A program made the translations under genes and the position numbers. This document shows positions 13,035 through 28,903 of a stretch of DNA of 33,228 bases, piece by piece. Source of the DNA: a virus. The notes below the pieces were generated by a model. It was not told the DNA's origin, searched no databases, and saw only the letters and a program-made list of their open reading frames with translations. Position 1 is the stretch's first letter; each line of letters starts with the position of its first letter. The DNA is taken from positions 1 through 33,228 of the IMG/VR virus record IMGVR_UViG_3300025010_000165; one strand, 5' to 3'.

Positions 13035-13048
13035 GTGGATTGGTTTAC
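13035..13048 (-). promoter_or_regulatory. GTAAACC element, leftward copy 1
   Basis: Minus-strand sequence GTAAACCAATCCAC fits the window-wide motif GTAAACC-N3-YCAC. It faces the leftward genes. Confidence 0.6.
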
Positions 13049-13105
13049 GGAAATTTGCTGTAAAAACACTAGGTTATATTTTGGAGGGAGGGATTTTTGG
13101 AGTAA

Positions 13106-13119
13106 GTACGGGGGTTTAC
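13106..13119 (-). promoter_or_regulatory. GTAAACC element, leftward copy 2
   Basis: Minus-strand GTAAACCCCCGTAC, matching the motif except for T in place of C before the final AC. A TATAAC on the same strand starts 27 bp beyond its end, a possible -10. Confidence 0.55.
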
Positions 13120-13181
13120 GTGGATTGGGGTCTGGGGGAAGTTTTCCTAACAGAAGGTATGAAATGAAGACCCACCGACCT

Positions 13182-13210
13182 CCCCCCTTGCCCCCCAGGC
13201 ACCCTTCCCC
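13182..13210 (-). other. Potential G-quadruplex on the minus strand
   Basis: On the minus strand there are four G runs (4, 3, 6 and 6 G) separated by loops of 2, 5 and 3 bases, all within 29 bp, a canonical G4-forming pattern. It lies in the divergent intergenic region, 270 bp upstream of the leftward genes on their coding strand. Whether it forms in vivo is unknown. Confidence 0.6.
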
Positions 13211-13334
13211 GATATCACGGAGGCCCCTACCCTCTCCCCGCCCGGCGCCCTGGTATCCTCAAACGAAATTCCCCGGCAACCGTCCATGTACGTCTGCACC
13301 TGGTCAAGTTATGATCCCGGCCCGAGCTGAGAAA

Positions 13335-13348
13335 GTAAACCGAGTATC
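13335..13348 (+). promoter_or_regulatory. GTAAACC element, rightward copy (imperfect)
   Basis: GTAAACCGAGTATC: the GTAAACC half is exact and the second half degenerate. First of three rightward copies spaced 34 and 25 bp upstream of the early promoter. Confidence 0.45.
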
Positions 13349-13368
13349 AAAGCAAACGGATTAACATT

Positions 13369-13382
13369 GTAAACCAAACAAC
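13369..13382 (+). promoter_or_regulatory. GTAAACC element, rightward copy
   Basis: GTAAACCAAACAAC, ending in the conserved AC. Second of the three copies before the early promoter. Confidence 0.5.
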
Positions 13383-13393
13383 GAAATAAAAGA

Positions 13394-13407
13394 GTAAACC
13401 CTTTCAC
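13394..13407 (+). promoter_or_regulatory. GTAAACC element abutting the early promoter
   Basis: GTAAACCCTTTCAC is an exact match to the motif and ends 7 bp before the -35 hexamer of the early promoter, the place where an activator or polymerase alpha subunit would contact DNA. Confidence 0.65.
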
Positions 13408-13414
13408 TTTTCTC

Positions 13415-13443
13415 TTGTATCTTTGTGATACATCGAATAATAT
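13415..13443 (+). promoter_or_regulatory. Early promoter with embedded inverted-repeat operator
   Basis: TTGTAT (-35) and TAATAT (-10) are separated by 17 bp, a good sigma70 promoter for the rightward genes. The spacer holds a perfect inverted repeat, TGTATC-N5-GATACA (13416-13432), which overlaps the -35 and would let a dimeric repressor block the promoter. Start of transcription is expected near 13450. Confidence 0.75.
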
Positions 13444-13493
13444 TAATTATAGAGATTGATTGAGAATAACCTCAACTTAAGGAGATGGACATT

Positions 13494-13835
13494 ATGAAGA
13501 AAGCAACCGGCCGCACTAAAGAAAGAGAGTACAGCATAATCCTAGAAAACCTTAGAATGGTCGCTAAAACAAGAGGCTATAAAGTAGATGAGTGTGAAGA
13601 GTATTTCGAGATTTACAGCCCGGTAAATCCTTTCCCATCTATGCAGGTATGGAAAGACGACACTGAGTGTGTGATTGTAAAGGCAAGGATTGACGACGAT
13701 GATCTGTTTTTCGAGGAGCAATTCAACGGACTTGAAAATGCCTTGTCCGCCTTTATGTTACTTGACCAAACGACTAAAGCAATCGCAGAACAGGTGAAAA
13801 AGAACGTACTTAACTTGTTCGGCAAACTCATGTAA
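13494..13835 (+). CDS. Early protein of unknown function (113 aa)
   Basis: First gene of the rightward unit. The ATG at 13494 lies 9 bp after AAGGAG; the ATG at 13485 touches that site and is unlikely to be used. The product MKKATGRTKEREYSIIL is alpha/beta, with acidic DDDDLFFEEQF in the middle and a helical end. No motif recognised. First-expressed early phage genes often encode small host-takeover proteins (context, not evidence of function). Confidence 0.75.
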   Translation: MKKATGRTKEREYSIILENLRMVAKTRGYKVDECEEYFEIYSPVNPFPSMQVWKDDTECVIVKARIDDDDLFFEEQFNGLENALSAFMLLDQTTKAIAEQVKKNVLNLFGKLM

Positions 13836-13845
13836 ACCCAAACAA
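13832..13845 (+). promoter_or_regulatory. GTAAACC element overlapping the first early gene's stop
   Basis: GTAAACCCAAACAA spans the stop codon of the previous gene; the second half is shifted by one base relative to the consensus. Weak copy. Confidence 0.35.
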
Positions 13846-13849
13846 CCGA

Positions 13850-13869
13850 GCCGGGCGGGATATCCCGGC
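13850..13869 (+). other. Short hairpin upstream of the 13883 gene
   Basis: GCCGGG and CCCGGC are complementary across 8 bases; the interior CGGGATATCCCG is itself palindromic. There is no T run, so it is not a typical terminator. It sits just before the next ribosome site and could affect translation. Confidence 0.45.
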
Positions 13870-13882
13870 AAAGGTGGAGAAG

Positions 13883-14116
13883 ATGAAAACGGAAACCTAC
13901 GAATTACCGAGTTTTTGGGCTGCCCCTCTTATCAATGGCGACTACTCAGGCATGGAAGATGATGATATCCAAGCGCTTGAACAATGGTTGGAGAAAGAGA
14001 AACCAGGCCATTGTTGCGATGTTTCGGAAAACTCTTTCTTTGCCTGGCGGCACGATGCGAGCGCCTATGTCCTGGCTTGCGATTGCTCGGAGTTTACCTT
14101 TATAATTGGAGATTGA
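13883..14116 (+). CDS. Small conserved-type early protein (77 aa)
   Basis: Begins MKTETYELPSFWAAPLINGD, has an acidic helix DDDIQALEQWLEKE, a Cys pair (HCCDVSENSFFAWRHDA) and ends in a strand EFTFIIGD. The LPSFWxxxLINGD start and SxxxFxWxHDA core are, as I recall, shared by many small phage and plasmid proteins of unknown function. The ATG has GGTGGAG in front. Confidence 0.72.
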   Translation: MKTETYELPSFWAAPLINGDYSGMEDDDIQALEQWLEKEKPGHCCDVSENSFFAWRHDASAYVLACDCSEFTFIIGD

Positions 14117-14120
14117 TATT

Positions 14121-14294
14121 ATGAAAATCTTATGCAAAACCCTAGGAATAAAATTCAATCTTGACCTCGAAACTATAGCAATAAATGGCAGGCTTATTAT
14201 ACGCAATCGCGGATACATTGTTACATCAATACCGGCTGACAGCAGAACCGCTATTGAATACATGAACCGCGTAAACAGGAGGATTAAATCATGA
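14121..14294 (+). CDS. Small hypothetical protein (57 aa)
   Basis: ATG at 14121 with GGAG 9 bp upstream; a TTG at 14106 is less likely. Product MKILCKTLGIKFNLDLETIA is beta-rich with a basic C-terminal helix. It overlaps the next gene as ATGA. Not recognised. Confidence 0.6.
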   Translation: MKILCKTLGIKFNLDLETIAINGRLIIRNRGYIVTSIPADSRTAIEYMNRVNRRIKS

Positions 14295-14407
14295 AGGGCC
14301 TTATCTGCATACTCCTAGCCGTTCTGCTCTATGCCGGACACTTGGCAATTATCAAGGTTTCCGCGCTTATTGAACCAATAACCTCAGCGCTTGAGGTGAT
14401 GAAATGA
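14291..14407 (+). CDS. Small membrane peptide (38 aa)
   Basis: The ATG overlaps the previous stop (ATGA) and its own stop overlaps the next gene's ATG. The product MKGLICILLAVLLYAGHLAI is one hydrophobic segment followed by an amphipathic tail. A single-pass inner-membrane peptide; function unknown. Confidence 0.6.
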   Translation: MKGLICILLAVLLYAGHLAIIKVSALIEPITSALEVMK

Positions 14408-14580
14408 ACGAAGAACAGATGAACGAAATAAGACTCATGAAAACAAGACTCCCGTTTCGCATTGTTTGGGGAATGCTCCACAAAGACCCACCACATACAT
14501 TCTCTGTACATGCAGACTATGACAACCGAAAGATGAATAAAGCCGCCCGATCTGGACATTATGTAGTCAAAGCACAATAG
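14404..14580 (+). CDS. Small hypothetical protein (58 aa)
   Basis: Starts in an ATGA overlap with the membrane peptide gene. The product has MNEEQMNEIRLMKTRLPFRI, then an aromatic/His middle (GMLHKDPPHTFSVHADYDN) and a basic end. Overlap on the 5' side is the main support. Not recognised. Confidence 0.58.
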   Translation: MNEEQMNEIRLMKTRLPFRIVWGMLHKDPPHTFSVHADYDNRKMNKAARSGHYVVKAQ

Positions 14581-14590
14581 GAGAAATGAT

Positions 14591-14800
14591 ATGAGAACAG
14601 AGCACATCAAATCAGTAACGGTGCCCGACGGTTTTCTCGGTGCAACCATTCAAATCAACCTATGTTACGATCCAGAAAGCAAGAAAACACTTGGAGTATG
14701 GACCGGCGGAACATTTACAAGTCAAGTTCCACTTGCAGTCGATGCGTCCGAAGCACTTTGGCTCATCAATAATCATCCGGCCTGCAAACAATTAAGGTAG
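14591..14800 (+). CDS. Small hypothetical protein (69 aa)
   Basis: Beta-rich protein beginning MRTEHIKSVTVPDGFLGATI. Its leader TAGGAGAAATGATATGA is repeated exactly before the next gene. No motif recognised. Confidence 0.62.
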   Translation: MRTEHIKSVTVPDGFLGATIQINLCYDPESKKTLGVWTGGTFTSQVPLAVDASEALWLINNHPACKQLR

Positions 14801-14810
14801 GAGAAATGAT

Positions 14811-14930
14811 ATGAAACACATCTTAATAAGACAAGCGCTCTCCAGGTTATTGTCCGAACCCGGTTATTACCGCCTGACCGTTGCAGCCAGGTTACAGGTA
14901 GTTCACTACTACATTTTTGAGGTGATATGA
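14811..14930 (+). CDS. Very small basic protein (39 aa)
   Basis: Preceded by the same leader as the 14591 gene. Product MKHILIRQALSRLLSEPGYY and TVAARLQVVHYYIF, an amphipathic basic helix. Its stop overlaps the next ATG. Support comes from the ribosome site and overlap only. Confidence 0.5.
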   Translation: MKHILIRQALSRLLSEPGYYRLTVAARLQVVHYYIFEVI

Positions 14931-15181
14931 TGCTAAAATGCGAAAATCCAAAAACAAACTACCGAGACATTATTGAAGACTTTAAAGTCAGTGACGAAGG
15001 ATTGCAGCACGAAAGCAATATAACTGCAGACTTTGAACACGGCCAATGGTTCATAACATGCCTGTCCTGTGGTGCTCAATGGTCCGTTAATGACGCAGAA
15101 GGAAGAGATGGAGACTACTATCAATTCGACGAAGTCTCCGCTGGGGACACTGAGCGTTGTATCAGACCTGAAGACTGTTAA
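14927..15181 (+). CDS. Acidic protein with one CxxC pair (84 aa)
   Basis: Starts in an ATGA overlap after GAGGTG. The middle ITCLSCGAQWSVNDAEG has one CxxC; other Cys are near the ends, so a zinc site is possible. The C-terminal half is rich in Asp and Glu. Function unknown. Confidence 0.65.
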   Translation: MMLKCENPKTNYRDIIEDFKVSDEGLQHESNITADFEHGQWFITCLSCGAQWSVNDAEGRDGDYYQFDEVSAGDTERCIRPEDC

Positions 15182-15243
15182 ACCATCACCGCCTGGCCCG
15201 TCGAGCCTTACATTAAACTCAAAAATTGGAAAGGGGGAATATT

Positions 15244-15693
15244 ATGGAAACAAAAAACATCATTAATGGTTTTGACTTCTCAGCACTACCTATAAGGATT
15301 GATTATGTCGGCAAGGTCGAGGATAAAGAATGGCCACACTTCCTGTGGAATGTCACCATTACAATGATGGATAAAAAAGGTTATTGGACGGTGCCATATA
15401 AAACAGGAGTTGGTAGGGTCGAGAAACCTGCAAAAAGCGCATTCAAACGCTACCATCCACAAGAGGCGAGACCCAAAATACCAACAAATGCAGATATCAT
15501 GTGTTCTCTCTTGTTGGATGCAAGTGCAGCCGATGAATCGTTTAGTACCTGGTGTGATAATTACGGATATGACGCCGACAGCATCAAAGCGCTAAACATA
15601 TATAAAGCGTGTTGTGATGAAGCTATATATCTCCGCAAGACGTTCACACGGGAGCAAATTACCAACATGCAAACAGCGCTTGAAGATTATTAG
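15244..15693 (+). CDS. Phage protein of unknown function (149 aa)
   Basis: Begins METKNIINGFDFSALPI after AAAGGGGG. Features: EWPHFLWNVTITM, a YKTGVGRVEKPA turn, PTNADIMCSLLLDASAADES and STWCDNYGYDADSIKALNIY followed by a helix. The WPHxxWxVT start and FxxWCxxxGYDxDSxKA middle resemble a protein family widespread in phages and plasmids (recollection). It is the last gene before the repeat-rich non-coding region. Confidence 0.75.
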   Translation: METKNIINGFDFSALPIRIDYVGKVEDKEWPHFLWNVTITMMDKKGYWTVPYKTGVGRVEKPAKSAFKRYHPQEARPKIPTNADIMCSLLLDASAADESFSTWCDNYGYDADSIKALNIYKACCDEAIYLRKTFTREQITNMQTALEDY

Positions 15694-15694
15694 A

Positions 15695-15831
15695 GTAACA
15701 ATCAGTTACCTAAAACATGTAGGCTCGGAGGGCAAAATCCTCAAGGTCTACATGTTTTGAGTAGTGAATTGTTACAGATGATGTAACAAGAATATACATT
15801 TGTAGTAACATTCTGTTACATAAAAAGTAAC
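15695..15831. repeat. Cluster of GTTAC/GTAAC dyads around a hairpin
   Basis: Dyads: GTAAC-N5-GTTAC at 15695-15709; TTGTTACA-N5-TGTAACAA at 15769-15789; GTAAC-N5-GTTAC at 15805-15819; and a lone GTAAC at 15827. The first and third have the same layout. A hairpin (15712-15758) sits between the first two. Such spaced palindromes are usually operators for dimeric regulators. Confidence 0.75.
15712..15758 (+). terminator. Long hairpin, possible terminator of the early operon
   Basis: AAAACATGTAG and CTACATGTTTT form a perfect 11-bp stem with a 25-nt loop holding a smaller stem (GAGG/CCTC). The 3' arm ends in TTTT, so it could terminate the preceding operon in either direction. The T run is short, so it might instead be a regulatory or DNA-binding structure. 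Confidence 0.55.
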
Positions 15832-15957
15832 AAAACTATACTGCCGCCAGGAGGTCAAATACTAGCGAGGTAGCAGAATTGAGTTAGGAAAGCGCGGATC
15901 GGACCACGCCTGAGATGATTTTTATCTGAAAAAATTTTGGTGTTTTGCTGAAAAAAT

Positions 15958-15971
15958 GTAAACCGAAACTG
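15958..15971 (+). promoter_or_regulatory. GTAAACC element (imperfect), before iteron 1
   Basis: GTAAACCGAAACTG: exact first half, degenerate second half. It lies 4 bp before iteron 1. Confidence 0.4.
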
Positions 15972-15975
15972 ATCA

Positions 15976-15991
15976 GGTCCGCAAAACGATA
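15976..15991 (+). repeat. Iteron 1 (direct orientation)
   Basis: GGTCCGCAAAACGATA matches GGTCCGCRATATGATA at 13 of 16 positions, counting R as A or G. Confidence 0.65.
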
Positions 15992-16120
15992 CGTTTCTAG
16001 GAGATCAAACACAGAGATGATGGAGCAAAAAATATCGCCTATTCTTGCCTATTCCTCTGACAGCGGAAGAAAATCACATACCACAATGTGGTGTTTTAGG
16101 AGGTCTGGCGGGAGGTCGTG

Positions 16121-16136
16121 TATCATATTGCGGACC
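16121..16136 (-). repeat. Iteron 2 (inverted orientation)
   Basis: Minus-strand GGTCCGCAATATGATA, 15 of 16 identical to iteron 3. The identity runs on into ACA beyond the 16 bases. Confidence 0.8.
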
Positions 16137-16162
16137 GAGATGAGGTGAAAATTAATTTTTCT

Positions 16163-16176
16163 GTGTCATAGTTTAC
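16163..16176 (-). promoter_or_regulatory. GTAAACT element, leftward, inside the iteron region
   Basis: Minus-strand GTAAACTATGACAC. It fits the motif with T at position 7. It is the only copy facing against its neighbouring genes. Confidence 0.45.
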
Positions 16177-16256
16177 ATGAAAAAGGGCATTTCTAGAGGT
16201 TTTAGCGGCAGCGATGGGTTCCAGCCAGGATGAGAAAATCTAATAAAATCATACCC

Positions 16257-16301
16257 CTTATATTATACTTATTAAATAATATATATATATATAGTAAAAA
16301 A
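16257..16301. repeat. AT-rich tract with (AT)n run
   Basis: A 45-bp stretch almost free of G and C with a TATATATATATA core, lying between the iteron pairs 1/2 and 3/4. It would melt easily, as the unwinding element of an iteron origin does. Confidence 0.7.
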
Positions 16302-16333
16302 AGACATAAGCACTGCCTACGCGCTGGCCATTT

Positions 16334-16349
16334 GGTCCGCGATATGATA
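16334..16349 (+). repeat. Iteron 3 (direct orientation)
   Basis: GGTCCGCGATATGATA followed by CAT, with TTT in front as in iteron 4. Confidence 0.8.
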
Positions 16350-16389
16350 CATCAGCCTAACATTGGCCTATCTACCAATTTAATTGATA

Positions 16390-16405
16390 TAGCATATTAC
16401 GGACC
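16390..16405 (-). repeat. Iteron 4 (inverted orientation)
   Basis: Minus-strand GGTCCGTAATATGCTA, 14 of 16 matches to the consensus GGTCCGCRATATGATA. Confidence 0.7.
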
Positions 16406-16534
16406 AAAATACATACAAACTGAGTATTAATTTCTTTTTTTGTGAAACTTCATCATACCGTCCCACCTAACCATCTGGAATCATTATAAATCAATCTGAA
16501 AAAACTTATTTCCACATTATTTCTTGTAAATCGC

Positions 16535-16562
16535 TTGACATTAACTACTTGCGTAGTATATT
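16535..16562 (+). promoter_or_regulatory. Promoter of the double-HTH gene, with inverted repeat in its spacer
   Basis: TTGACA is followed after 16 bp by TATATT. The spacer contains ACTAC-TTGC-GTAGT (16544-16557), a perfect 5-bp inverted repeat positioned so that a bound protein would block the promoter; autoregulation by the downstream HTH protein is a natural inference. Confidence 0.8.
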
Positions 16563-16588
16563 ATTGATACATAAGGAGGAAGAACACA

Positions 16589-16978
16589 ATGGATGGACAA
16601 CGATTGAAAGAAGTGCGACACATGGCAGGCTGGACAGTTTTCTACGCAGCCAAACAATTCAACATCTCAGAGAGCTATTATAGACGGCTCGAAAAATCAA
16701 CCAGCGTCCCGGCGCGTATAGCCGACTTTATGGAAATCAAAGCAAAGGAAGACCCAAGGTATATAAAGACAGAAAGACGAGCCACCCCAGCTCATTTAAC
16801 CGCCTTCCGCCAGGCCTTCCGCCTGACCCAGGAAAAAGCCTCCACCCTGCTGGGAGTCTCAAGGATCACCTGGAATCGCTGGGAGAACGGCCAGACGGCA
16901 ATCCCTAAACACATGCTCCACACACTGCGGGGCATGGTCGCACAACTCAAATCAGAAAAAGAGGGGGTAAACTCATGA
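16589..16978 (+). CDS. DNA-binding regulator with two helix-turn-helix modules
   Basis: The 129-residue protein carries two HTH segments: MDGQRLKEVRHMAGWTVF-AAKQFNISESYYRRLE (residues 1-35) and, after a short linker, AFRLTQEKASTLLGVSRITW with NRWENGQ (residues 75-104), the latter typical of XRE/Cro-type proteins. The ATG follows AAGGAGGAAG and a strong promoter with an operator-like repeat. It is the best candidate for the main transcription switch of the rightward genes or for a protein acting on the nearby repeats. Which site it binds cannot be read from sequence. Confidence 0.85.
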   Translation: MDGQRLKEVRHMAGWTVFYAAKQFNISESYYRRLEKSTSVPARIADFMEIKAKEDPRYIKTERRATPAHLTAFRQAFRLTQEKASTLLGVSRITWNRWENGQTAIPKHMLHTLRGMVAQLKSEKEGVNS

Positions 16979-17133
16979 GTTTTGAAATATTAAGAGACAG
17001 CAAAGGCACTCCGTCTCATGTGCATATCGATGACGGCTTTATGATGACTTCCAGACCATATGCTGAGGACACAGACGGCCGGATGGAGCACCAACTCAAG
17101 GCCGCTGTAGAGTCGCTGGGCCTGGTGTACTGA
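16975..17133 (+). CDS. Small hypothetical protein (52 aa)
   Basis: The ATG overlaps the regulator stop as ATGA. The product starts MSFEILRDSKGTPSHVHID, a short beta-rich piece, and ends EHQLKAAVESLGLVY. Translational coupling to the HTH gene is the main support. Not recognised. Confidence 0.6.
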   Translation: MSFEILRDSKGTPSHVHIDDGFMMTSRPYAEDTDGRMEHQLKAAVESLGLVY

Positions 17134-17176
17134 GCCGCCCGGCTCCTGGGGAGGGACACGCGCCCTCCTCGGCGGC
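17134..17176 (+). other. Two-part GC-rich hairpin between small genes
   Basis: Outer stem GCCGCC (17134-17139) with GGCGGC (17171-17176), inner stem GGAGGG (17150-17155) with CCCTCC (17163-17168) and a 7-nt loop. No T run follows, so it is not a standard terminator; it may stabilise RNA or act as an attenuator before the next ribosome site. Confidence 0.55.
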
Positions 17177-17216
17177 GAGGCAGCACGGACAAAACACTTA
17201 TAAACAAGGAGGACAT

Positions 17217-17396
17217 ATGCCCAAACCCTCAACAGTAGCAGACATATTTGAGCAGTTAAGGACGCACGGCATCGCGCCGTGGCAGGATGAGGATAAACCA
17301 GCAGAGGAGGACAAAAACCATGGCAATGAATACCGAAGACGTAAGAGAGTGGCTGTGCGCCCGCAAAGGCTGCAACCAGACTGTAGCCATAGATGA
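17217..17396 (+). CDS. Small hypothetical protein (59 aa), overlapping the next gene
   Basis: AAGGAGG lies just before this ATG, the best ribosome site in the area. Product MPKPSTVADIFEQLRTHGIA is acidic at first; the last third is Arg-rich and lies over the next gene in another frame, so only the first part looks selected. It could be a real gene with a tail overlap or a leader for the next gene. Confidence 0.48.
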   Translation: MPKPSTVADIFEQLRTHGIAPWQDEDKPAEEDKNHGNEYRRRKRVAVRPQRLQPDCSHR

Positions 17397-17472
17397 GGGT
17401 GGCCTGACCCTTGTCATCGTTGAGACTGGTAAATACCTCGAAATAGGTGGCACACCGGAGGACGAAGAATGA
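17320..17472 (+). CDS. Small hypothetical protein (50 aa)
   Basis: Starts MAMNTEDVREWLCARKGCNQ and continues as a two-strand hairpin-like LTLVIVETGKYLEIGG. Its stop overlaps the next ATG. The ribosome site (GAGGAC) is moderate. The longer frame from 17287 is less likely. Confidence 0.55.
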   Translation: MAMNTEDVREWLCARKGCNQTVAIDEGGLTLVIVETGKYLEIGGTPEDEE

Positions 17473-17615
17473 AATCCCTACTCCTCTACGCCGCAGCAGC
17501 ATCCCTGATAGCCCTCATGGCCTTCGCTTTCATCCACACCCTGCCGAAGGCCATCGACAAATTGACCCAGCACCAGACTGAGATAAAGGTGACCTATGAC
17601 AACGCCCAGTATTAA
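17469..17615 (+). CDS. Small membrane protein (48 aa)
   Basis: MKSLLLYAAAASLIALMAFA is a hydrophobic N-terminal segment (signal anchor), followed by a short soluble tail KAIDKLTQHQTEIKVTYDNA. Starts in an ATGA overlap and ends 20 nt inside the next gene. Function unknown. Confidence 0.62.
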   Translation: MKSLLLYAAAASLIALMAFAFIHTLPKAIDKLTQHQTEIKVTYDNAQY

Positions 17616-17970: not shown

Positions 17971-17984
17971 GTAAACTGAGTCAC
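17971..17984 (+). promoter_or_regulatory. GTAAACT element before the 18012 gene
   Basis: GTAAACTGAGTCAC, matching the motif with T at position 7. It lies 28 bp upstream of the next start codon, just before its ribosome site. Confidence 0.5.
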
Positions 17985-18358: not shown

Positions 18359-18550
18359 ATGACCCCCGAACAAGTCAAATTCATCCGTACCACCCTTGGG
18401 CGGACCCAGCAGGACATGGCTAAGATCCTCGGGGTCTCCGTCAGCGTCTGGAAACTCTGGGAGTCAGGTGGAGGCGGACCGAAGCCGGAGAACATGACTA
18501 AACTTCTGAAACTCCACCACCACGTCGTCGGGCGGGAGGGGAGGGAATGA
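18359..18550 (+). CDS. Small XRE-type helix-turn-helix protein (63 aa)
   Basis: The segment RTTLGRTQQDMAKILGVSVS with WKLWESG is the classical XRE/Cro HTH (TQxxxAxxLGVxxxxxxxWE). The protein has little beyond it, so it is a Cro-sized regulator. Its stop overlaps the DNA polymerase ATG (ATGA), linking it to replication genes. Confidence 0.8.
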   Translation: MTPEQVKFIRTTLGRTQQDMAKILGVSVSVWKLWESGGGGPKPENMTKLLKLHHHVVGREGRE

Positions 18551-20709
18551 TCAAAGTAACCCTCGACTGGGAAACCGCCTACGGCAAACACCCAGTGACG
18601 CAGGAGAACATCACCCTGTCGAAAATGACAACGGAAGAGTATGTCCGTCACCCCCTCTTCAAAGTCCACGGCCTGGGGGTCAAAATAGAGCGTGAGCGAG
18701 CATTTTACATCTACAAGCGAGACGACCTCCTGCACTTCCTGAAGGCCCACCCCTGGCAGGACTCTTTCGTCTGCTGCCATCACACACATTTTGACGGCGC
18801 CATACTCTCCTGGCGGGCAGGGATCAAACCGGCGTTATGGGGCTGTACTCTGAGCATGGCCCGCGCCCTCTACCCGCACGAGTCAGTGAGCCTGGCCAAC
18901 ATCGCCCGTCTGCTGCAGCTCGGCGAGAAAGGACACGAGCTGGTCAACTTCGTCAATCTCTGGGAACTGACCGACGAGCAGCAGCGGATACTCGGTGGGT
19001 ATTGCTGCAACGACGTGGAGCTGACCTCCGATGCTTTTGATGCGATGAAACGGAACTTTCCGCCGTCCGAGCTACGGTTGATCGACCTGACCATCCGCTT
19101 GTTCACCGAGCCGGTGCTGCAGGTGGAGCGCAGCATTCTGATCGAGGAGTACAAACGTGAGCGTAGGAGCAAGCGGGTGCTGCTGAAGAAGTGCGCGACG
19201 GACAAGTCCGTGCTCGCTTCCAACGACCAGTTTGCCGCCCTGCTGTTGACCCTCGGCGTGGACCCCCCCAAAAAACTCAGCCCTTCAAAAGTCAAGGATG
19301 GGCGAGTGGACCCGGACAACGTCGGTGAGCCACCGCTCGGGATACTGCCTTCGTTCAAAACTGCAGGCCTGCCAGTTGGGGACCGAGTGCGGATGAAGGA
19401 GGAGAAAAACTCCTACCCTTGGGCCTACGCCTTCGGCAAGAGCGACGAGGAGTTTAAGATGCTCCTCGACCATCCGGACGAGCAGGTTCAGGCTGTGGTC
19501 GAGGCCCGCATGGGTATCAAATCGACAATTAAGGAAACCCGCAGCAAGCGGTTCTTCAAGATCGGCAAGCGCGGGGCGTTCCCGGTGTACCATAATTACT
19601 ACGGGGCGAGAACTGGCAGGGATTCCGGCGGCGACAAGCAGAACACTACCAATCTGAATCGGGTAGATCCGCGTGACCCAACATCCGGGGCGCTGCGACG
19701 GTCCCTCAATGCTCCTGAGAAGCACGTTCTTGTGGTACGCGACCTCGGACAGATCGAAGCGCGGAAGCTCTCTTATGCTGCCGGCCAAGAGGATCTGCTG
19801 GACCTGTTCCGCGCCGGCGGCGACCCTTACAATCGCCAAGCGACAAAAATCTTCGGCTATGAGGTCAATCGCAAGCTCGACGAGTTCTGGCTGGAGGGTT
19901 TGGTTGGCAAGAGCTCGACGCTCGGAAATGGTTACGGTATGGGCTGGTCAAAGTTCCAGGAGTCCCTGCGGGTCGGGTTCATGGGCGCGCCACCGTTGCT
20001 GTTTGATCAAGTTGCCGCGCAGAAGCTGGACGCTGACATTGACACATTTTGCCATCAGAGAAGCTACAAGCCTGGATACGCCTTCCTGCGAGACGAGGCA
20101 CTGGCAATGAAGCCCCTTAATGTTGACGAAGAAACTCACCTCTGGCACTGCGCAGCCGTGAAGCAGATAGTTGATAAGTACCGGCAGAGTAACAAAGCGA
20201 TCGTAGATTTTTGGGGCGAAGCACAACGAGCGCTCGACGCGATAGTGCGGGGGGAAACTATCCCAGTTGGCAAGCGTAACCTCGTGACTACCTGCCCCGA
20301 AGGGTTTCTTCTCCCTAACGGCATGAAAATCAGGTATTATAAGCTGCAGCGCAATGATAGCGGCGAGTTTCGCTACCTTTCCAATCGACGCAAAAAAGAG
20401 TGGTCGTACCTGTACGGCGGCAAGGCGGTGGAAAACATTATCCAAGCCTTGGCCCGAATCGTCCTCACTGACCAAATGCTGGAGATCAACCGCTGGCTGA
20501 AGCTGCAGCGGCAGACGGACAAAGGCAAGACATACTCGGTGGTGACCTCGACCTACGACGAAGTAGTAGCCTGTGTCCCGTTTTACCGCGCCGACGACTG
20601 CCTGCAGATGATGAAGGAAGTTATGGCCACGGCGCCGGCATGGTGCCCGGACCTGCCGTTGAAATCTTCCGGTGGGTATGCGGTGAGCTACGGGGATTGT
20701 GAAAAATAA
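18547..20709 (+). CDS. Family A DNA polymerase with 3'-5' exonuclease
   Basis: The 720-residue enzyme copies the phage genome. The proofreading domain has exo I (LDWET, D7/E9), exo II (HTHFDGAILSW, D83) and exo III (YCCND, Y152/D156). The polymerase domain has motif A VVRDLGQIEAR (D399), motif B EGLVGKSSTLGNGYGMG (K455, Y463), and motif C TSTYDEVVA (D671/E672). Motif C reads YDE instead of the common HDE. No 5'-nuclease domain is present, as in T7-type polymerases. Thioredoxin-binding insertion was not recognised. It is the first large gene of the replication block and overlaps the small HTH gene. Confidence 0.95.
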   Translation: MIKVTLDWETAYGKHPVTQENITLSKMTTEEYVRHPLFKVHGLGVKIERERAFYIYKRDDLLHFLKAHPWQDSFVCCHHTHFDGAILSWRAGIKPALWGCTLSMARALYPHESVSLANIARLLQLGEKGHELVNFVNLWELTDEQQRILGGYCCNDVELTSDAFDAMKRNFPPSELRLIDLTIRLFTEPVLQVERSILIEEYKRERRSKRVLLKKCATDKSVLASNDQFAALLLTLGVDPPKKLSPSKVKDGRVDPDNVGEPPLGILPSFKTAGLPVGDRVRMKEEKNSYPWAYAFGKSDEEFKMLLDHPDEQVQAVVEARMGIKSTIKETRSKRFFKIGKRGAFPVYHNYYGARTGRDSGGDKQNTTNLNRVDPRDPTSGALRRSLNAPEKHVLVVRDLGQIEARKLSYAAGQEDLLDLFRAGGDPYNRQATKIFGYEVNRKLDEFWLEGLVGKSSTLGNGYGMGWSKFQESLRVGFMGAPPLLFDQVAAQKLDADIDTFCHQRSYKPGYAFLRDEALAMKPLNVDEETHLWHCAAVKQIVDKYRQSNKAIVDFWGEAQRALDAIVRGETIPVGKRNLVTTCPEGFLLPNGMKIRYYKLQRNDSGEFRYLSNRRKKEWSYLYGGKAVENIIQALARIVLTDQMLEINRWLKLQRQTDKGKTYSVVTSTYDEVVACVPFYRADDCLQMMKEVMATAPAWCPDLPLKSSGGYAVSYGDCEK

Positions 20710-20941: not shown

Positions 20942-20988
20942 GTAAACCCCGCAACTTTTTACTTGCAATAGTTTGTAAACCGTGTCAC
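20942..20988 (+). promoter_or_regulatory. Two GTAAACC elements upstream of the terminator
   Basis: GTAAACCCCGCAAC at 20942-20955 and GTAAACCGTGTCAC at 20975-20988. The first ends 7 bp before a -35-like TTGCAA (20963-20968), the same spacing as at the early promoter, but I see no good -10. The second carries the perfect TCAC half. Confidence 0.55.
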
Positions 20989-21007
20989 AGTGAATTGTAC
21001 AGCGCCC

Positions 21008-21065
21008 GATGCCCTCGCAGGATCGCACTCTGGCTGGGTAACTGACTGCGAGGGCATCATTTTTT
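21008..21065 (+). terminator. Rho-independent terminator after the polymerase genes
   Basis: A perfect 13-bp stem (GATGCCCTCGCAG with CTGCGAGGGCATC) with a 25-nt loop, followed by AT and TTTTT. This is a strong terminator for the polymerase operon. The sequence from the GTAAACC elements to its end is short enough for a small RNA if a promoter is present. Confidence 0.9.
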
Positions 21066-24120: not shown

Positions 24121-24351
24121 ATGTATCCATCAATCTTTCTCATAATCGCGGTGCCTTTGTTGCTGTCAGGCTGCGACTCTAAATTTTGGAAGCCTTTACA
24201 GTGCTTGGAAACAAGTAAGGTAGTAGAGATAGAAGCTATTATCTACCGGGGAGGGATTGTGCGGCTGGAGAACGGTCTAAGCGTGGACGTGGGGCAGCCG
24301 CACGAACCAGTTAAGGTAGGCAGCGAGTGGTGTGTTAAATATTCACGATGA
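24121..24351 (+). CDS. Small lipoprotein (76 aa)
   Basis: MYPSIFLIIAVPLLLSGC is a lipoprotein signal with lipobox LSGC. The short mature part is beta-rich (VVEIEAIIYRGGIVRLENG). The leader TGACTTTCTTTGGGAGGAG is nearly repeated before the next gene. Function unknown. Confidence 0.75.
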   Translation: MYPSIFLIIAVPLLLSGCDSKFWKPLQCLETSKVVEIEAIIYRGGIVRLENGLSVDVGQPHEPVKVGSEWCVKYSR

Positions 24352-24370
24352 CTTTCTTTGGGGGGAAGTG

Positions 24371-24568
24371 ATGGACGACTGGCTCAGCGAGTACAAAGAG
24401 ATGATCGATGACTGTCTGAAAACCAAGAGCAGGGAAGACCGACTGACAGAATGGGAAGCTGAGTTTCTCAACTCTGTAGAGACGCAGATGGTGTCCAAGA
24501 ATACCATTTCCCAAAAGCAGATAGATGTGCTTGAGAGGATTTGGGAAAAAGTTACTTCGAGAGGGTAG
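24371..24568 (+). CDS. Helical hypothetical protein (65 aa)
   Basis: MDDWLSEYKEMIDDCLKTKS, two amphipathic helices (WEAEFLNSVETQMVS; QIDVLERIWEKVT). The start follows a near copy of the lipoprotein gene's leader. It resembles small phage proteins with an FLxSVxxQ / QxxxLxxIWxKV layout (recollection). Function unknown. Confidence 0.66.
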   Translation: MDDWLSEYKEMIDDCLKTKSREDRLTEWEAEFLNSVETQMVSKNTISQKQIDVLERIWEKVTSRG

Positions 24569-24571
24569 AGG

Positions 24572-24946
24572 ATGACTACTCCAGAAAGCAAAATCAAATC
24601 TCTTGCGAGAGACCTCCTCGCTCGCTACGACATCCAGCCGGCCAGCAAGGCAGGGACGTTCAAGCAGGCAGCAGGCTGGTACTACTTTGCGGTACAAGGG
24701 ATAATGTCGGTGCGTGGAATACCTGACATAATAGGGCAGCATCGAGGGGTCTTCTTCGGGGTAGAATTAAAGGCCCCCGGCAAGAACCCCACCGGCTTCC
24801 AAAAACTCCAGATCGACGCCATCTCCTGCTCCGGCGGAGCTTGTTTCGTGGTGGATGGGCCTGAGACTTTGAAGGTGTTTGAGGAATGGCTGGAAGAGAT
24901 AGATGAGGGAGCCAATTTCCAAGAGTTCTTGGACTCGGAGGTTTGA
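24572..24946 (+). CDS. VRR-NUC domain nuclease
   Basis: The 124-residue protein has the VRR-NUC core: GIPDIIG (D52) followed by VFFGVELKAPGKNPTGFQK (E65/K67, Q77), then ISCSGGACFVVDGPE. Stand-alone VRR-NUC proteins are common in phages and may cut Holliday junctions or flaps, by analogy to FAN1 and known phage homologues. It lies 3 bp after the previous gene with GGGTAGAGG. Confidence 0.9.
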   Translation: MTTPESKIKSLARDLLARYDIQPASKAGTFKQAAGWYYFAVQGIMSVRGIPDIIGQHRGVFFGVELKAPGKNPTGFQKLQIDAISCSGGACFVVDGPETLKVFEEWLEEIDEGANFQEFLDSEV

Positions 24947-24947
24947 G

Positions 24948-25358
24948 ATGACTGACATCTATTTTCCTATGCTATTAGGGCATCTGGTAGGTGACTACCT
25001 GCTGCAAAATAACTGGATGGCACTCAACAAAGGAAAGGCTTCTCTGCTTGGATATAGTTCATGTACGACTCACTGTGTAATATACGCTGCAGCGGTTTGT
25101 GCTGTAATGGATGTGCTGAGACTTGACTGGTTTATTTTTGTCGCCGCAGGGCACTTCTTATTGGACAAATACAGTGTAGGTGACTGGTGGTTGAAGGTCA
25201 TTGGCGGGCGGAGCCCTTCCGTATTTGTGAGTACACCTGCAGAAGGAAACTCAATGACGTACTTACAGGCAGGGTTCACTGCAGTTGTGTATGCCGTTGC
25301 AGACAACACCATGCACTTGCTGATTATGTTTTTTGGTTGGAGGATGTTATGGGCTTGA
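24948..25358 (+). CDS. DUF3307-type membrane protein (136 aa)
   Basis: Several hydrophobic segments, with the opening FPMLLGHLVGDYLLQNNWMA and the pattern H(x)D(x)xxQxxWM-xxK plus CTTHCVIYAAAVCAV and AGHFLLDKY, all as in DUF3307 integral membrane proteins. Role unknown. The leader GGAGGTTTGAGATGA is repeated exactly at 25700. Confidence 0.78.
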   Translation: MTDIYFPMLLGHLVGDYLLQNNWMALNKGKASLLGYSSCTTHCVIYAAAVCAVMDVLRLDWFIFVAAGHFLLDKYSVGDWWLKVIGGRSPSVFVSTPAEGNSMTYLQAGFTAVVYAVADNTMHLLIMFFGWRMLWA

Positions 25359-25714
25359 ATTTTATGTTCTCGCGGGCACGTGCTGACTATCCATACCCTC
25401 CACGCCCCGGGGCTACGACGTTCCTTCCTAACCCCGATCCCAGCAAATACACCATCGTACGAAAAAACCAGATAGGCACACATTTACTAATGGAAATCCA
25501 ATATGTTGGGTGTATTAATTACGAAGGCAGAAAAATACTGGTGTTTACAAACTGCGAGTGGCGAGATCTCAAATCACAGCGCATCATAGATCCTCATTTC
25601 AGTGATAATTCATCACTTCGTTACCCGTTTGCCAGATTCGCACCAACTGCATTAGGGTGGGAGATGGCAGAAATATTGTGCTACGCCTTACTACAAAAAG
25701 GAGGTTTGAGATGA
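25349..25714 (+). CDS. Hypothetical protein (121 aa)
   Basis: Product MGLNFMFSRARADYPYPPRP, mixed, with QYVGCINYEGRKILVF and NCEWRDLKSQRI. No motif recognised. Starts 10 nt before the end of the previous gene with GGAGG in front. Confidence 0.65.
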   Translation: MGLNFMFSRARADYPYPPRPGATTFLPNPDPSKYTIVRKNQIGTHLLMEIQYVGCINYEGRKILVFTNCEWRDLKSQRIIDPHFSDNSSLRYPFARFAPTALGWEMAEILCYALLQKGGLR

Positions 25715-25974
25715 ACAACCTGTACTGCTCCTCCTGCGGCAAGAAGACCTTGCAGGAAACTGACGATGAAGACTATGAGGTCGGAACCCTCCACGCTTGC
25801 CTGTCCTGCGGAGCAGTTTACTGGATGTCTCCTGCTGTGGATGTCGAAGTAACTGCTGAGCCGGATCCGCACGATGTGTTCCAACCACTCAATTCTGTGA
25901 TCGAAGTAACTCTCGCAGCGTTGAATCTGCTGAACCATCCCAGTCTTGGGTATATCAATAGGGTGTATAAATGA
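25711..25974 (+). CDS. Zinc-ribbon protein (87 aa)
   Basis: MNNLYCSSCGKKTLQETDDE and HACLSCGAVYWM give two CxxC pairs, a zinc ribbon. The rest is hydrophobic and acidic. Starts in an ATGA overlap. Function unknown; zinc ribbons often bind nucleic acid or proteins. Confidence 0.72.
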   Translation: MNNLYCSSCGKKTLQETDDEDYEVGTLHACLSCGAVYWMSPAVDVEVTAEPDPHDVFQPLNSVIEVTLAALNLLNHPSLGYINRVYK

Positions 25975-26120
25975 CCACCATACTGCTTGCTTGGATTGAA
26001 TGCGTGTATAAGAAGGATTTCGAGCTTCTGTACATTGGTACAGTGATTATTGATGTTGTAGCGGTTATTACTTTAGCAGAGTTGGTAACAGCAGCACTTA
26101 AATTTTTGGGCAACTCATGA
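25971..26120 (+). CDS. Small membrane protein (49 aa)
   Basis: MTTILLAWIECVYKKDFELL and one longer hydrophobic stretch YIGTVIIDVVAVITLAELV. ATGA overlaps on both sides. Function unknown. Confidence 0.62.
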   Translation: MTTILLAWIECVYKKDFELLYIGTVIIDVVAVITLAELVTAALKFLGNS

Positions 26121-27679
26121 CCATCCGTGTCTTAAACGACCACTACGTCATCGAGTCCGACAACGCCGGCCAGTTCCGCGCCCTGTTCCCTGATCTCAAG
26201 GAGGCGGTGGTGCAGGGACGTCAGTTCGTCGCCGTGCCGCACACCCTCGAGGTCGCCCGGGTGCTCAATAACATCGGCTGTAAAGTTCAGTCCCCGATCA
26301 GGACACAGTACGACTGGCCCGGGAGATACACTCCGAGGTGGTATCAAATTGAGTCGGCGGAGTTTTTCACCTTTTACTCTCGCTGCTACTGCCTATCCGA
26401 GATGCGTACGGGAAAAACCCTCAGCGCCCTGTGGGCTGCCGACTACCTCCGCCGCGCCGGCAAGATCCGCCGCACCCTGATCGCCGCCCCGCTCTCCACC
26501 ATCTACGATGTCTGGGAGCAGAACATCTTCGAGAGCTTCCCGCTGCGCACCTTTGCCGTCTTGCACGGTAGCCGGCAGAAACGCCTTGAGCTACTCGCTC
26601 GGCCGCATGACTTCTACATCGTCAATCATCATGGCATGGGGCTTATTGAAGAAGCCCTTGCCGCCCGCCCGGACATCGACCTGGTGATCGTTGATGAATT
26701 AGCCGAACTTCGCTCAGCGAAAAATAAGAAGGGCGTCCTGTGGGCGCCGATGAACCGAGTATTGAACAAGCAGGGCATTGTCCGCTCCGCCTGGGGATTG
26801 ACCGGTACACCGACTCCAAACGAACCACCTGACGCCTTCGGACAATGCAAGCTGATCACCCCTGAGAACTACCGAGGCCACTTCACCAGCTTCAAGCACG
26901 AGACCATGCTGCAGTTTGGACCGTTCAAGTGGGTGCCAAAGAAAGGAGCAGAGGAGTCCGTCGCCAGGATATTGAAACCAGCCATCCGGTTCAAGCGGAC
27001 GGTCTGCTCCACCATGAAGCCATGTTTCATCGATCGGCGGGCCCAGTTGTCGGCGGAGCAGGAGAGAGCGTACAAGCAGCTGCGCAACCAGGCTGCCACC
27101 GACCTGCGAGGACAGACAGTTACAGCAGTTAATGCTGCGGTATTATTGAGTAAATTGATACAGGTCAGCTGTGGCGTAGCTTATGATGCAGAAGGTAAAC
27201 TGGTCAAGTTCGACTTCGGCCCGCGGTTGAAAGTCCTTGAGGAACTGATCGAGGCCAACAACGAGAAGGTCTTGGTCTTCGTGCCGTTCACCGGGGTTCT
27301 GAACACCCTCGCCACCGAGCTCCGCAAGCGGTGGTCGGTGGCAGTCGTCGACGGCAGCGTCTCGGCCGGCCGGCGAGCGCAGATCTTCCGGGAGTTCCGT
27401 TCGCTGCCCGATCCATGGATCATCATGGCCAACCCGGACACCATGGCCCACGGTCTCGACCTCACCGCCGCTTCCCTGTCGATCTGGTATGCCCCTTACT
27501 TGAAAGCAGCCAAGGTCCAGCAGGCCAACGCCAGGACAGATGGGTCAAAACAGTCGGCCAAAATCGACATCGCCCATATCTATGCAACAGCCGAAGAGAA
27601 ACGTGCTTACGATGTCTTGCTCGGTAAGGGGCGCTTTCAAGACGTCGTCCTGGAGATGGCAAACAAAGGAGGAAGGTAA
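26117..27679 (+). CDS. SNF2-family (superfamily 2) helicase
   Basis: The 520-residue protein carries the SNF2 motifs: I SEMRTGKT (K100), Ia TLIAAPLS, II IVDELAEL (D193/E194), III LTGTPTPN (228-235), and the C-terminal lobe with VLVFVPFTGVLNTL, motif V GLDLTAASLS and VI QANARTDGS. Phage SNF2 proteins probably move along double-stranded DNA to help replication or remove bound proteins. Motif I has an Arg where Gly is usual. It starts in an ATGA overlap and is followed by TAATG coupling to the next gene. Confidence 0.9.
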   Translation: MTIRVLNDHYVIESDNAGQFRALFPDLKEAVVQGRQFVAVPHTLEVARVLNNIGCKVQSPIRTQYDWPGRYTPRWYQIESAEFFTFYSRCYCLSEMRTGKTLSALWAADYLRRAGKIRRTLIAAPLSTIYDVWEQNIFESFPLRTFAVLHGSRQKRLELLARPHDFYIVNHHGMGLIEEALAARPDIDLVIVDELAELRSAKNKKGVLWAPMNRVLNKQGIVRSAWGLTGTPTPNEPPDAFGQCKLITPENYRGHFTSFKHETMLQFGPFKWVPKKGAEESVARILKPAIRFKRTVCSTMKPCFIDRRAQLSAEQERAYKQLRNQAATDLRGQTVTAVNAAVLLSKLIQVSCGVAYDAEGKLVKFDFGPRLKVLEELIEANNEKVLVFVPFTGVLNTLATELRKRWSVAVVDGSVSAGRRAQIFREFRSLPDPWIIMANPDTMAHGLDLTAASLSIWYAPYLKAAKVQQANARTDGSKQSAKIDIAHIYATAEEKRAYDVLLGKGRFQDVVLEMANKGGR

Positions 27680-27993
27680 TGCAAAGACACATCAATGACA
27701 TGATGGCCGGGGAGCATATCGTTCTGATTTTTCCAACATACCGAGACGCCAGAGAAGCCGCGAATAGCCGCTGCCCACCGGGGGCAATAAATATTCTGAG
27801 CGAAATACGGCTGGAGCACAGGCCATCCGCCGGATGGATTCAGTTTGGTTATGCTGGGATGAATTGTGAAAGGTTACAAGGAATCCTTGCTGACATCCGT
27901 TTTGTGTCAGACGCAGATCTCTTAGTAACCAGTCAATTTAAAGATTTCGCCCGGGAAAGGTCTGATAGGTATATCAAGCATAACGGATTATGA
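27679..27993 (+). CDS. Hypothetical protein (104 aa)
   Basis: MQRHINDMMAGEHIVLIFPT with an alpha/beta pattern, SRCPPGAINILSEIRL in the middle and a basic end. The ATG overlaps the helicase stop by one base (TAATG). Not recognised. Confidence 0.65.
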   Translation: MQRHINDMMAGEHIVLIFPTYRDAREAANSRCPPGAINILSEIRLEHRPSAGWIQFGYAGMNCERLQGILADIRFVSDADLLVTSQFKDFARERSDRYIKHNGL

Positions 27994-28886
27994 ACCTTTC
28001 ACTCATAGAAATACATCAGCGGCAGAACCTCCCGCTCGATCAAAAGATTGCCTGGGCAAGGGATCGGATAAAGGAGTGGTACGAAGCTTGGGATGGGAAG
28101 GTCTATGTCGCCGATTCTGGCGGGGCTGACTCGACAGTGCTTCGACATCTGGTTCGACAACTATACCCCGATGTACCCTCGGTATTTGTGAATACCGGGC
28201 TTGAGTTTCCTGAAATCGTCGCATTCATGAAAACCATTTCAAACATAGTATGGTTGAAACCGAAAATGCCCTTCGTAGAAGTCATCAAGCGGTATGGGTA
28301 CCCTGTGGTAAGTAAAGAGGTCGCCATGGCTATTTCTCGCTGCCGAAATACAAAGTCAGAGGATCAGCGGAGGTTGCGCCTGTATGGTGGTACGAACCCC
28401 TCCACCGGTAAAAAGCAGTCTGTCGGAGTGATTCCACAGAAGTATCATTATTTAGTCACTGCGCCTTTCAAAATCAGTGAGCAGTGTTGCGAATGTATGA
28501 AGAAGCAACCGTTCTATAAGTACCACAAAGACACTGAACAAGTTCCGTTTGTAGGAGTAATGGCGGCTGATGGCCGAAGCCGGCTGCGAAGTTACGCTGC
28601 TCATGGATGCAATATCTTTGACCGAAAGAAGATGATGTCTCGCCCGCTTTCAATCTGGACCAAGGACGATATCTGGCGATGTATTAGAGCAGGCATACCT
28701 TATAGCCCTATCTACGACATGGGCTACGACAGGACGGGCTGCGTGTTTTGCATGTTCGGGTGCCAGATGGAGAAAGAGCCTCGCTTTGTGAAACTGAAAC
28801 AAACCCACCCAAAACTCCACAGATACTGCATGGAGTATCTCGGGCTGAGAGAAGTCCTAGAGTTTATGAATATACCCTATGAATAA
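27990..28886 (+). CDS. PP-loop ATP pyrophosphatase, PAPS reductase-like
   Basis: The 298-residue protein has an adenine-binding PP-loop VYVADSGGADSTVL (43-48), where the usual SGGKDS Lys is Ala46. FVNTGLEFPEIV and SKEVAMAISRCR follow, with three C-terminal Cys in RTGCVFCMFGC (C251, C254, C258). Such proteins bind ATP and often thiolate a substrate: PAPS reductases, DndC, and phage proteins annotated as PAPS reductases share these parts. It overlaps the previous gene by 4 nt and lies directly before the tRNA-like gene; involvement in RNA or DNA thiolation is only a suggestion. Confidence 0.83.
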   Translation: MNLSLIEIHQRQNLPLDQKIAWARDRIKEWYEAWDGKVYVADSGGADSTVLRHLVRQLYPDVPSVFVNTGLEFPEIVAFMKTISNIVWLKPKMPFVEVIKRYGYPVVSKEVAMAISRCRNTKSEDQRRLRLYGGTNPSTGKKQSVGVIPQKYHYLVTAPFKISEQCCECMKKQPFYKYHKDTEQVPFVGVMAADGRSRLRSYAAHGCNIFDRKKMMSRPLSIWTKDDIWRCIRAGIPYSPIYDMGYDRTGCVFCMFGCQMEKEPRFVKLKQTHPKLHRYCMEYLGLREVLEFMNIPYE

Positions 28887-28889
28887 AAA

Positions 28890-28903
28890 GTAAACCCCTT
28901 CAC
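28890..28903 (+). promoter_or_regulatory. GTAAACC element abutting the tRNA promoter
   Basis: GTAAACCCCTTCAC, exact match to GTAAACC-N3-YCAC, located 3 bp after the previous stop and 9 bp before the -35 hexamer. Confidence 0.65.

Follow-up and report, generated by a model that had tools for sequence, protein, structure and literature searches.

A 14-bp element, GTAAAC-N6-AC, recurs outside the genes of a 33,228-bp stretch of viral DNA (IMG/VR record IMGVR_UViG_3300025010_000165, referred to here in its full length as the window). We suggest that its copies are operators of a regulator encoded by the phage itself, a protein with two helix-turn-helix (HTH) domains that we call Xre1, which would regulate its own synthesis and time the early promoters. 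Judging from sequence, we give this reading as a whole a probability of roughly 0.58, and its parts differ in strength. It is very probable that the element is an operator bound by a protein, fairly likely that Xre1 is that protein, and somewhat likely that the net effect of Xre1 is repression; the suggestion that the sites lying upstream of promoters activate is a tentative one. A preliminary description of this DNA, which listed twelve copies of the element, had called the factor unknown. There is now a strong candidate, the phage's own HTH gene at 16589-16978, although its binding to the sites is so far a prediction.

All twelve listed copies are present in the record, and nine of them have the terminal AC that had been claimed. 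Eleven overlap no called gene and the twelfth, at 13832, overlaps a stop codon, in agreement with the described placement in non-coding DNA or at stop codons; genes were called by a codon-pair script, with no comparison with a standard caller, and make up 89% of the window. The recurrent element is therefore real, but the consensus first proposed for it, GTAAACC-N3-YCAC, is matched exactly by only 4 of the 12 copies and is too narrow. Exact GTAAACC is found in ten (the copies at 16163 and 17971 have GTAAACT), and orthologous sites in related phages break YCAC, keeping GTAAAC and often the terminal AC. We therefore replaced the consensus with GTAAAC-N6-AC.

Relatives of the window were gathered with the polymerase gene (18547-20709) as query, which gave seven loci at 78-100% identity, and with xre1, which gave six loci, or nine with an alignment; a polymerase alignment gave twelve, and many of these loci belong to the same records. 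Two redundant records do not enter the counts: G005, nearly a copy of the window (25,278 of 25,329 aligned bases), and G003, whose sequence is identical to the first part of G006. Reference genomes contained five relatives of the polymerase, at 26-48%, and none of their 154 candidate stretches was related to Xre1; in the phages collection, tblastn found no match to Xre1 at E 1e-3.

Comparison of coding, non-coding and shuffled DNA confirmed that the element is over-represented in non-coding DNA, beyond what shuffling yields. GTAAACC occurs 10 times in the window against a shuffle mean of 2.78, with none of 100 shuffles reaching 10, and the strict 14-mer occurs 4 times where 0.01 would be expected. 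When up to two mismatches are allowed, there are 26 matches to the 14-mer versus 12.3 expected (the largest shuffle had 21), and about half of such loose matches are thus attributable to chance. GTAAAC-N6-AC has nine non-coding copies and one coding copy in the window (3,577 vs 29,651 bp; Fisher 1.7e-8). The corresponding counts are 56 and 7 in six close records including the window (G000, G001, G004, G007, G008 and G009; 22,194 non-coding and 194,897 coding bp), 9 and 2 in a second set (G006 and G010), and 2 and 3 in the distant relatives G011-G015; because the records are related, P values taken over several of them overstate the evidence, the value for the window alone being the 1.7e-8 given above. 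No other non-coding 7-mer exceeds its expectation under a second-order model by as much as GTAAACC does (50 vs 4.4). The AC end was seen in 28 of 56 distinct non-coding GTAAAC 14-mers versus 8 of 75 coding ones in nine records. Orientation with transcription, as previously described, holds for nine of the 11 window sites of the form GTAAAC-N6-[AT]C, which face the direction of the next gene, and not for the other two; in nine records the figure is 61 of 77, with four further sites that have no next gene dropped. The window had no Rfam match at gathering scores, and in the available excerpts of PMC3483164 the GTAAACC matches shown are ribosome-binding-site strings.

The claimed link with promoters was also upheld: copies stand at fixed distances from promoters and mostly face transcription, and footprint alignments show short conserved islands within otherwise divergent DNA. 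We scanned for the best 14-bp frame near three promoters, anchored on hand-chosen -35 strings, in 14 records for the promoter that follows the polymerase gene, 16 for the type found at 28890 and 8 for the early rightward promoter. The scan favours GTAAAC and keeps whichever of 8 upstream gaps and 26 downstream offsets scores best; several of its rows come from fragments or closely duplicate other rows. We refer to upstream sites as U and downstream sites as D, with D offsets given relative to the -35. The post-polymerase promoter has the order U site (20942), 7 bp, -35, D site (20975) and -10. Its D frame starts at +12 in 13 of the 14 records, and a U site scoring at least 7 is separated from the -35 by 7 bp in eight records and by 9 bp in three, with none in G011, G013 or G015. 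At the 28890-type promoter, a U site scoring at least 7 has a 9-bp gap in 13 records, and D lies at +2 in 12, at +12 in two and at +21 in two, steps of about one helical turn. A high-scoring U site with a 7-bp gap is found at the early promoter in six of the eight records. The gaps of 7, 7 and 9 bp previously reported for 13394, 20942 and 28890 are correct. Finally, at the promoter of xre1, GTAAAYCGCTTGAC lies exactly on the -35 in all eight non-redundant records that hold that promoter (GTAAATCGCTTGAC in the window and GTAAACCGCTTGAC in G001, G004, G006, G007, G008, G009 and G010), and the DNA around this site differs between two sub-groups.

Replication iterons, packaging signals or chance could be invoked for the four copies clustered within 75 bp at 13335-13407. 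We consider any such non-transcriptional explanation very improbable, as the sites are far above chance and are locked to the -35/-10 geometry across otherwise different records.

A pattern for the promoter with the 7-bp gap found 20 stretches in viral contigs, nine of them on contigs already sampled; of the remaining 11, one (L098) is in this phage group and ten have no similarity to it. Another pattern returned 14 stretches, all of them in this phage group (nine on sampled contigs and five confirmed by comparison).

The preliminary description took the non-palindromic form of the element as an argument against a simple operator, and that argument was not supported. The 14-bp frame has GT and AC at its two ends, and although its left half is much stronger than its right, the second half is often related to the first (GTAAAC with GTCAAG, GTTAAT or GTCAAT). 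Moreover, the post-polymerase D frame is rightward in the close relatives of the window and reads GTAAACCGTGTCAC in the window itself, and it is present in inverted form, GTCAATCAGTTTAC, in G002, G006 and L090. A frame that can be inverted in place is best read as a pseudo-dyad, and the GTAAAC-N6-AC unit appears to behave as a pseudo-palindromic operator. Copies overlap the -35 or the -10 at three promoter types, which suits an operator for a repressor.

The earlier view was that of an activator site, in which a phage or host protein on the U copies would recruit RNA polymerase to weak promoters and the D copies would be secondary. U sites do end 7 or 9 bp before the -35 at three promoter types, facing the promoter, with a rigid spacing that suits activation. 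The cores that carry them are mostly weak (TTGCAA/CACAGT and TTGTAT/TAATAT) and are not listed by a consensus scan, in which the xre1 promoter, a strong one without a U site, scores 11/12. However, copies also lie on the -35, the spacer and the -10, where an activator would block, and a 2-bp difference in the gap would be unusual for a single mode of activation. In addition, the promoters of G011 and G015 keep D without a clear U, and their core (TTGACT/TACAAT) is strong and near consensus. We therefore consider a pure activator unlikely. Repression is ranked first because D is the part that is kept in G011, G013, G014 and G015, and co-operative repression by U together with D also suits the rigid spacing of U.

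In these four distant relatives, parts of the geometry appear to outlast the sequence of the operator. G014 has the U sites GTAACCCAAGAAAC (gap 7) and GTAACCCGCGATAC (gap 9), G011 and G015 have the D sites GTCAATCAGGTTAC and GTCAGTCCGGTTAC, and G013 has the D sites GTAAACTCAGTAAC and GTTACGGTGTTTAC. Both of the non-coding GTAAAC-N6-AC matches in the distant relatives are these G013 D sites and are therefore not chance.

The candidate reader, Xre1, is a protein of 129 aa, and its gene is the first called after its own promoter. It matches HTH families over both domains. A 12-sequence Xre1 profile matches HigA2 over residues 62-121, Aca10 over residues 67-107 and Aca2 over residues 1-52 (E about 1e-4), with SinR at 0.006; it also matches P22 C2 (E about 0.001) and the 434 repressor (E 0.007 to 0.04). 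The AlphaFold2 model has two HTH domains of four helices each (pLDDT 83), with a pTM of 0.45 that leaves the placement of the domains unsure. Compared with viral models, its fold gave a best E of 4.3e-4 and TM-scores of at most 0.41 over the query for the top three. In phages with GTAAAC sites, 39-52 of the 52 residues of the C-terminal HTH are identical to those of the window, and the recognition segment GVSRITWNRWE is invariant; the number identical is 30 in G013, 28 in G014, 21 in G011 and 19 in G015. Changes of half-site between phages are thus accompanied by divergence of the C-terminal HTH of Xre1.

The N-terminal HTH (16589-16780) is far more variable: in G007, 25 of its 64 residues are identical to those of the window versus 48 of 52 in the C-terminal HTH, despite a polymerase and helicase that are 93-99% identical to the window's. 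The N-terminal half of G001 has 32/64 identical residues, and G001 and G007 nevertheless share the U sites at 20942 and 28890 with the window. Since divergent N-terminal halves go with identical U sites, this specificity does not lie in the N-terminal HTH, which is ruled out as the reader of the right half.

Might something else read the sites, be it the product of xre2, another phage protein or a host transcription factor? The product of xre2 likewise has an HTH and keeps 94-95% identity in G001, G004, G007, G008 and G009, and the link between site and xre1 comes from a single contrast. Nevertheless, in G003 and G006, which carry sites, the sole match to xre2 is xre1 itself, so that xre2 is disfavoured. 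Half-sites vary at unchanged positions, as expected of a reader that co-evolves with the phage, and the xre1 promoter carries a site in every one of its eight records. A reader other than Xre1 is, in our estimate, rather unlikely.

We suggest that Xre1 would be made early and would bind both U and D sites. At the D and -35 sites it would block RNA polymerase, and the site on the -35 of xre1 would impose negative feedback on its own synthesis. Early and middle promoters would thereby be turned down at a set level, resulting in a timed or level-limited early programme, and at a low dose of Xre1 the U sites may aid polymerase on core promoters that are mostly weak. The conserved C-terminal HTH would read GTAAAC; the variable N-terminal HTH would do something else, because very different N-terminal domains coexist with identical sites.

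Several observations weigh against this scheme. In the polymerase tree a single branch (support 88/99) sets the GTAAAC-rich phages apart from the others, so the link between type of site and type of xre1 is one evolutionary contrast, and another co-inherited protein could account for it. The presence and absence of the motif, first read as co-occurrence with xre1, was weakened as evidence by this, and weakened further by the four distant relatives that keep the frame with other half-sites. A small Xre1 tree does not cleanly separate the groups (two changes, with 24% of bootstrap trees having one). The folds closest to the C-terminal HTH are those of HigA2, Aca10, Aca2 and MqsA, at Z 7.6-9.1, and values below about 13 may reflect merely a common helical arrangement; the fold search barely tested the N-terminal domain. 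Under a maximal-order model, GTAAAC ranks below GATATC and GTAAACC is unremarkable, contributing nothing beyond GTAAAC (50 vs 45.8). As the geometry scan picks the best frame and favours GTAAAC, its low scores are weak evidence or none, and these comprise U in G011, G013 and G015 and D at +12 in six of seven early promoters: in seven of the eight early-promoter records the best D frame is the one at +12, with a high score in G010 alone. The DNA after the polymerase of G013 has no recognised -35. The 8.4-kb fragment G012, which was outside the scan, has no such promoter within 400 bp after the polymerase and has one dyad-like frame only, read on both strands. No operator is visible on the own -35 of the xre1 homologues of G011, G013, G014 and G015, and the frame nearest to the G015 homologue is the weaker GTAAAATCAATTAC, about 250 bp upstream. 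Within the window, the leftward sites S1 and S2 (Table 1) lie in a conserved stretch without a recognisable promoter core, and no promoter is recognisable at 13832, 15958 or 17971. Lastly, the fixed spacing of U fits an activator as well.

The proposed system works, as far as can be predicted, like the regulon of a Cro/CI-type (XRE) repressor such as 434 or P22 C2. These are likewise small phage HTH proteins with sites over the regulator's own promoter and over several phage promoters. The operators of 434 are 14 bp long with conserved ends, and the present element is also 14 bp, with GT/AC ends. Unlike in those systems, there are two HTH domains in one chain, the operators are strongly asymmetric, the sites occur at no fewer than five places in the window, and no integrase was found. 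The closest folds to the C-terminal HTH are autorepressors of the Aca, HigA2 and MqsA type. Aca proteins repress their own operon, and autorepressors of this type act at one operon; here the sites are phage-wide and the regulator has an extra N-terminal HTH. By analogy with lambda CI at OR and PRM, where one protein represses and, from an upstream site, activates, Xre1 may do both, activation being a proposal here. The centre of the upstream site lies at -42 for lambda CI and at about -50 in the present case.

A further parallel is with the stoperators of Cluster A mycobacteriophages (L5, TipsytheTRex), which, in the available excerpts of two papers, are asymmetric 13-bp sites, dispersed and mostly in one orientation with transcription, and whose repressor carries both of its DNA-binding domains, one more variable than the other, on the same chain (PMC9283540, PMC6550527). 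On that description, the likeness lies in asymmetric and mostly oriented sites, here of 14 bp, and in one chain with two DNA-binding domains. The differences are that the C-terminal domain is the constant one here, that the best-conserved sites are on promoters, and that no integrase or ParB was found. There are about 12 to 15 sites in the present 33-kb, possibly partial, record, compared with more than 20 per genome in Cluster A. If the window belonged to a system of this kind, a monomeric two-domain repressor would halt elongating RNA polymerase at dispersed asymmetric sites and silence a prophage. The asymmetry of the site, its prevailing orientation with transcription, the intergenic sites without a promoter (17971, 13832), and the small protein with one constant and one variable DNA-binding domain would all agree with this. 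On the other hand, D sites face either way, and the sites with the best conservation are on promoters rather than inside operons. Among records that may be incomplete, matches to tyrosine integrase (PF00589) were found in 0 of 9, to serine recombinase (PF00239) in 0 of 8 and to ParB (PF02195) in 0 of 8, ParA being outside the search. The Cluster A (TipsytheTRex) repressor is absent among the best 50 and 60 fold and profile matches listed for Xre1, with no direct comparison made. Because no integrase, recombinase or ParB was found, homology to the repressor is not established and conservation is best for the sites on promoters, we do not class this as a stoperator system, and stoperator-like immunity seems to us improbable. 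It is also doubtful, though worth raising, that a lineage without detected lysogeny genes has independently evolved genome-wide operators, asymmetric and oriented with transcription, for a tandem-HTH protein, with the DNA-reading HTH constant and the other hypervariable, with geometry outlasting sequence, and with half-sites and recognition helix changing together.

Control of this general kind is familiar in viruses; the variant with a two-HTH regulator and conserved site geometry appears new. If our interpretation is true, sequence alone suffices to read a phage regulon, with its single regulator, its 14-bp operator and its three types of promoter, and promoter geometry partly outlasts operator sequence. 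The related phages would then supply a ready-made set of variants, in both operator and recognition helix, in which to follow how a regulator and a dozen sites change together and, should independent evolution also be true, a natural series for watching a phage rewire a whole regulon at once. With the paired U and D sites it can be tested directly whether a single phage protein first activates promoters and then shuts them off, and the pairing of a constant with a variable HTH raises the question of what the variable domain targets.

Table 1. Sites, promoters and genes of the window; "earlier list" refers to the twelve copies of the preliminary description
Feature	Position	Strand	Sequence and remarks
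S1	13035..13048	-	GTAAACCAATCCAC; leader of leftward gene block
S2	13106..13119	-	GTAAACCCCCGTAC; 14-mer invariant in 6/6 close records
S3	13335..13348	+	GTAAACCGAGTATC; first of four sites before early rightward promoter
S4	13352..13365	+	GCAAACGGATTAAC; GTAAACCC... in 3/6 close records; absent from earlier list
S5	13369..13382	+	GTAAACCAAACAAC; third of four early-promoter sites
S6	13394..13407	+	U site of early promoter; ends 7 bp before -35
Early rightward promoter	13415..13443	+	-35 TTGTAT 13415-13420; -10 TAATAT 13438-13443; aligned in 8 records
D position of early promoter, decayed	13427..13440	+	GATACATCGAATAA; intact in G010 as GTTACACCGTTTAC
Weak copy over stop codon	13832..13845	+	GTAAACCCAAACAA; without AC end
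Weak copy	15958..15971	+	GTAAACCGAAACTG; GTAAAC kept in 6 close records, right half not; without AC end
Site in long non-coding stretch	16163..16176	-	GTAAACTATGACAC
Putative operator over xre1 -35	16526..16539	+	GTAAATCGCTTGAC; -35 TTGACA 16535-16540; absent from earlier list
xre1	16589..16978	+	129-aa regulator, two HTH domains; proposed reader of sites
Site without clear promoter	17971..17984	+	GTAAACTGAGTCAC; 41 bp before next gene
xre2	18359..18550	+	63-aa single-HTH protein; rival reader
U site, post-polymerase promoter	20942..20955	+	GTAAACCCCGCAAC; -35 TTGCAA 20963-20968
D site, post-polymerase promoter	20975..20988	+	between -35 and -10 (CACAGT 20986-20991), spanning spacer and -10
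U site, promoter downstream of helicase and 27990-28886 genes	28890..28903	+	9 bp before -35 TTGACA 28913-28918
D site, 28890 promoter	28915..28928	-	GTAAACGGGTTGTC; overlaps -35 and spacer; -10 TAAGGT 28936-28941; absent from earlier list
GTWWC-N5-GWWAC copies	12953-12967, 13417-13431, 15695-15709, 15805-15819, 31818-31832		second, palindromic word

At S1, GTAAACC and the adjoining upstream DNA are conserved in the six close records, and the right half and downstream DNA less so. A second, palindromic word of 15 bp, GTWWC-N5-GWWAC, has five non-coding copies and no coding copy in the window. It has 2-5 non-coding copies each in G001, G004, G007, G008, G009 and G014, equal coding and non-coding counts in G011 and G015, and no non-coding copy in G002, G003, G006, G010, G012 or G013. 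One copy overlaps the -35 of the early promoter and another lies 44 bp upstream of the start of a leftward gene, placements that make a second regulator likely. The idea that this word tracks the N-terminal HTH of xre1 was dropped after inspection by eye.

At 21008-21058, about 10 nt past the point where transcription from the 20942 promoter should start, an RNA stem of 13 bp closes a loop of 25 nt and is followed by a T run (z -3.0). The stem is conserved in six close records, with what by eye is a compensatory G-C to A-T change in G006, and it could be a terminator or attenuator, an antitermination leader or a small RNA. Behind the 28890 promoter is a tRNA-like sequence ending in ACCA (28962-29062), uncalled by ARAGORN; its relative in G009 has the same acceptor and T arms and a different middle. 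The sole ARAGORN call, a tRNA-Ala at 32936-33022 on the minus strand, is inside a called gene and may be false. The promoter island at 28870-28950 is nearly identical in six records, occurs twice in G008 and is flanked by DNA that differs between phages, which suggests a promoter cassette, shared or mobile, ahead of variable cargo. The stretch at 15694-16588, about 900 bp without called genes, is AT-rich with TA runs, is partly conserved in relatives and is a possible replication origin. In G007 an insert of about 870 bp separates two pieces of the polymerase gene (6301-9330). The early promoter of G006 is immediately preceded, at L007:3329-3547, by ten perfect tandem units of 22 bp (ATGCACGAGCTGCGCCCTGGCT), which are absent from the other records aligned.

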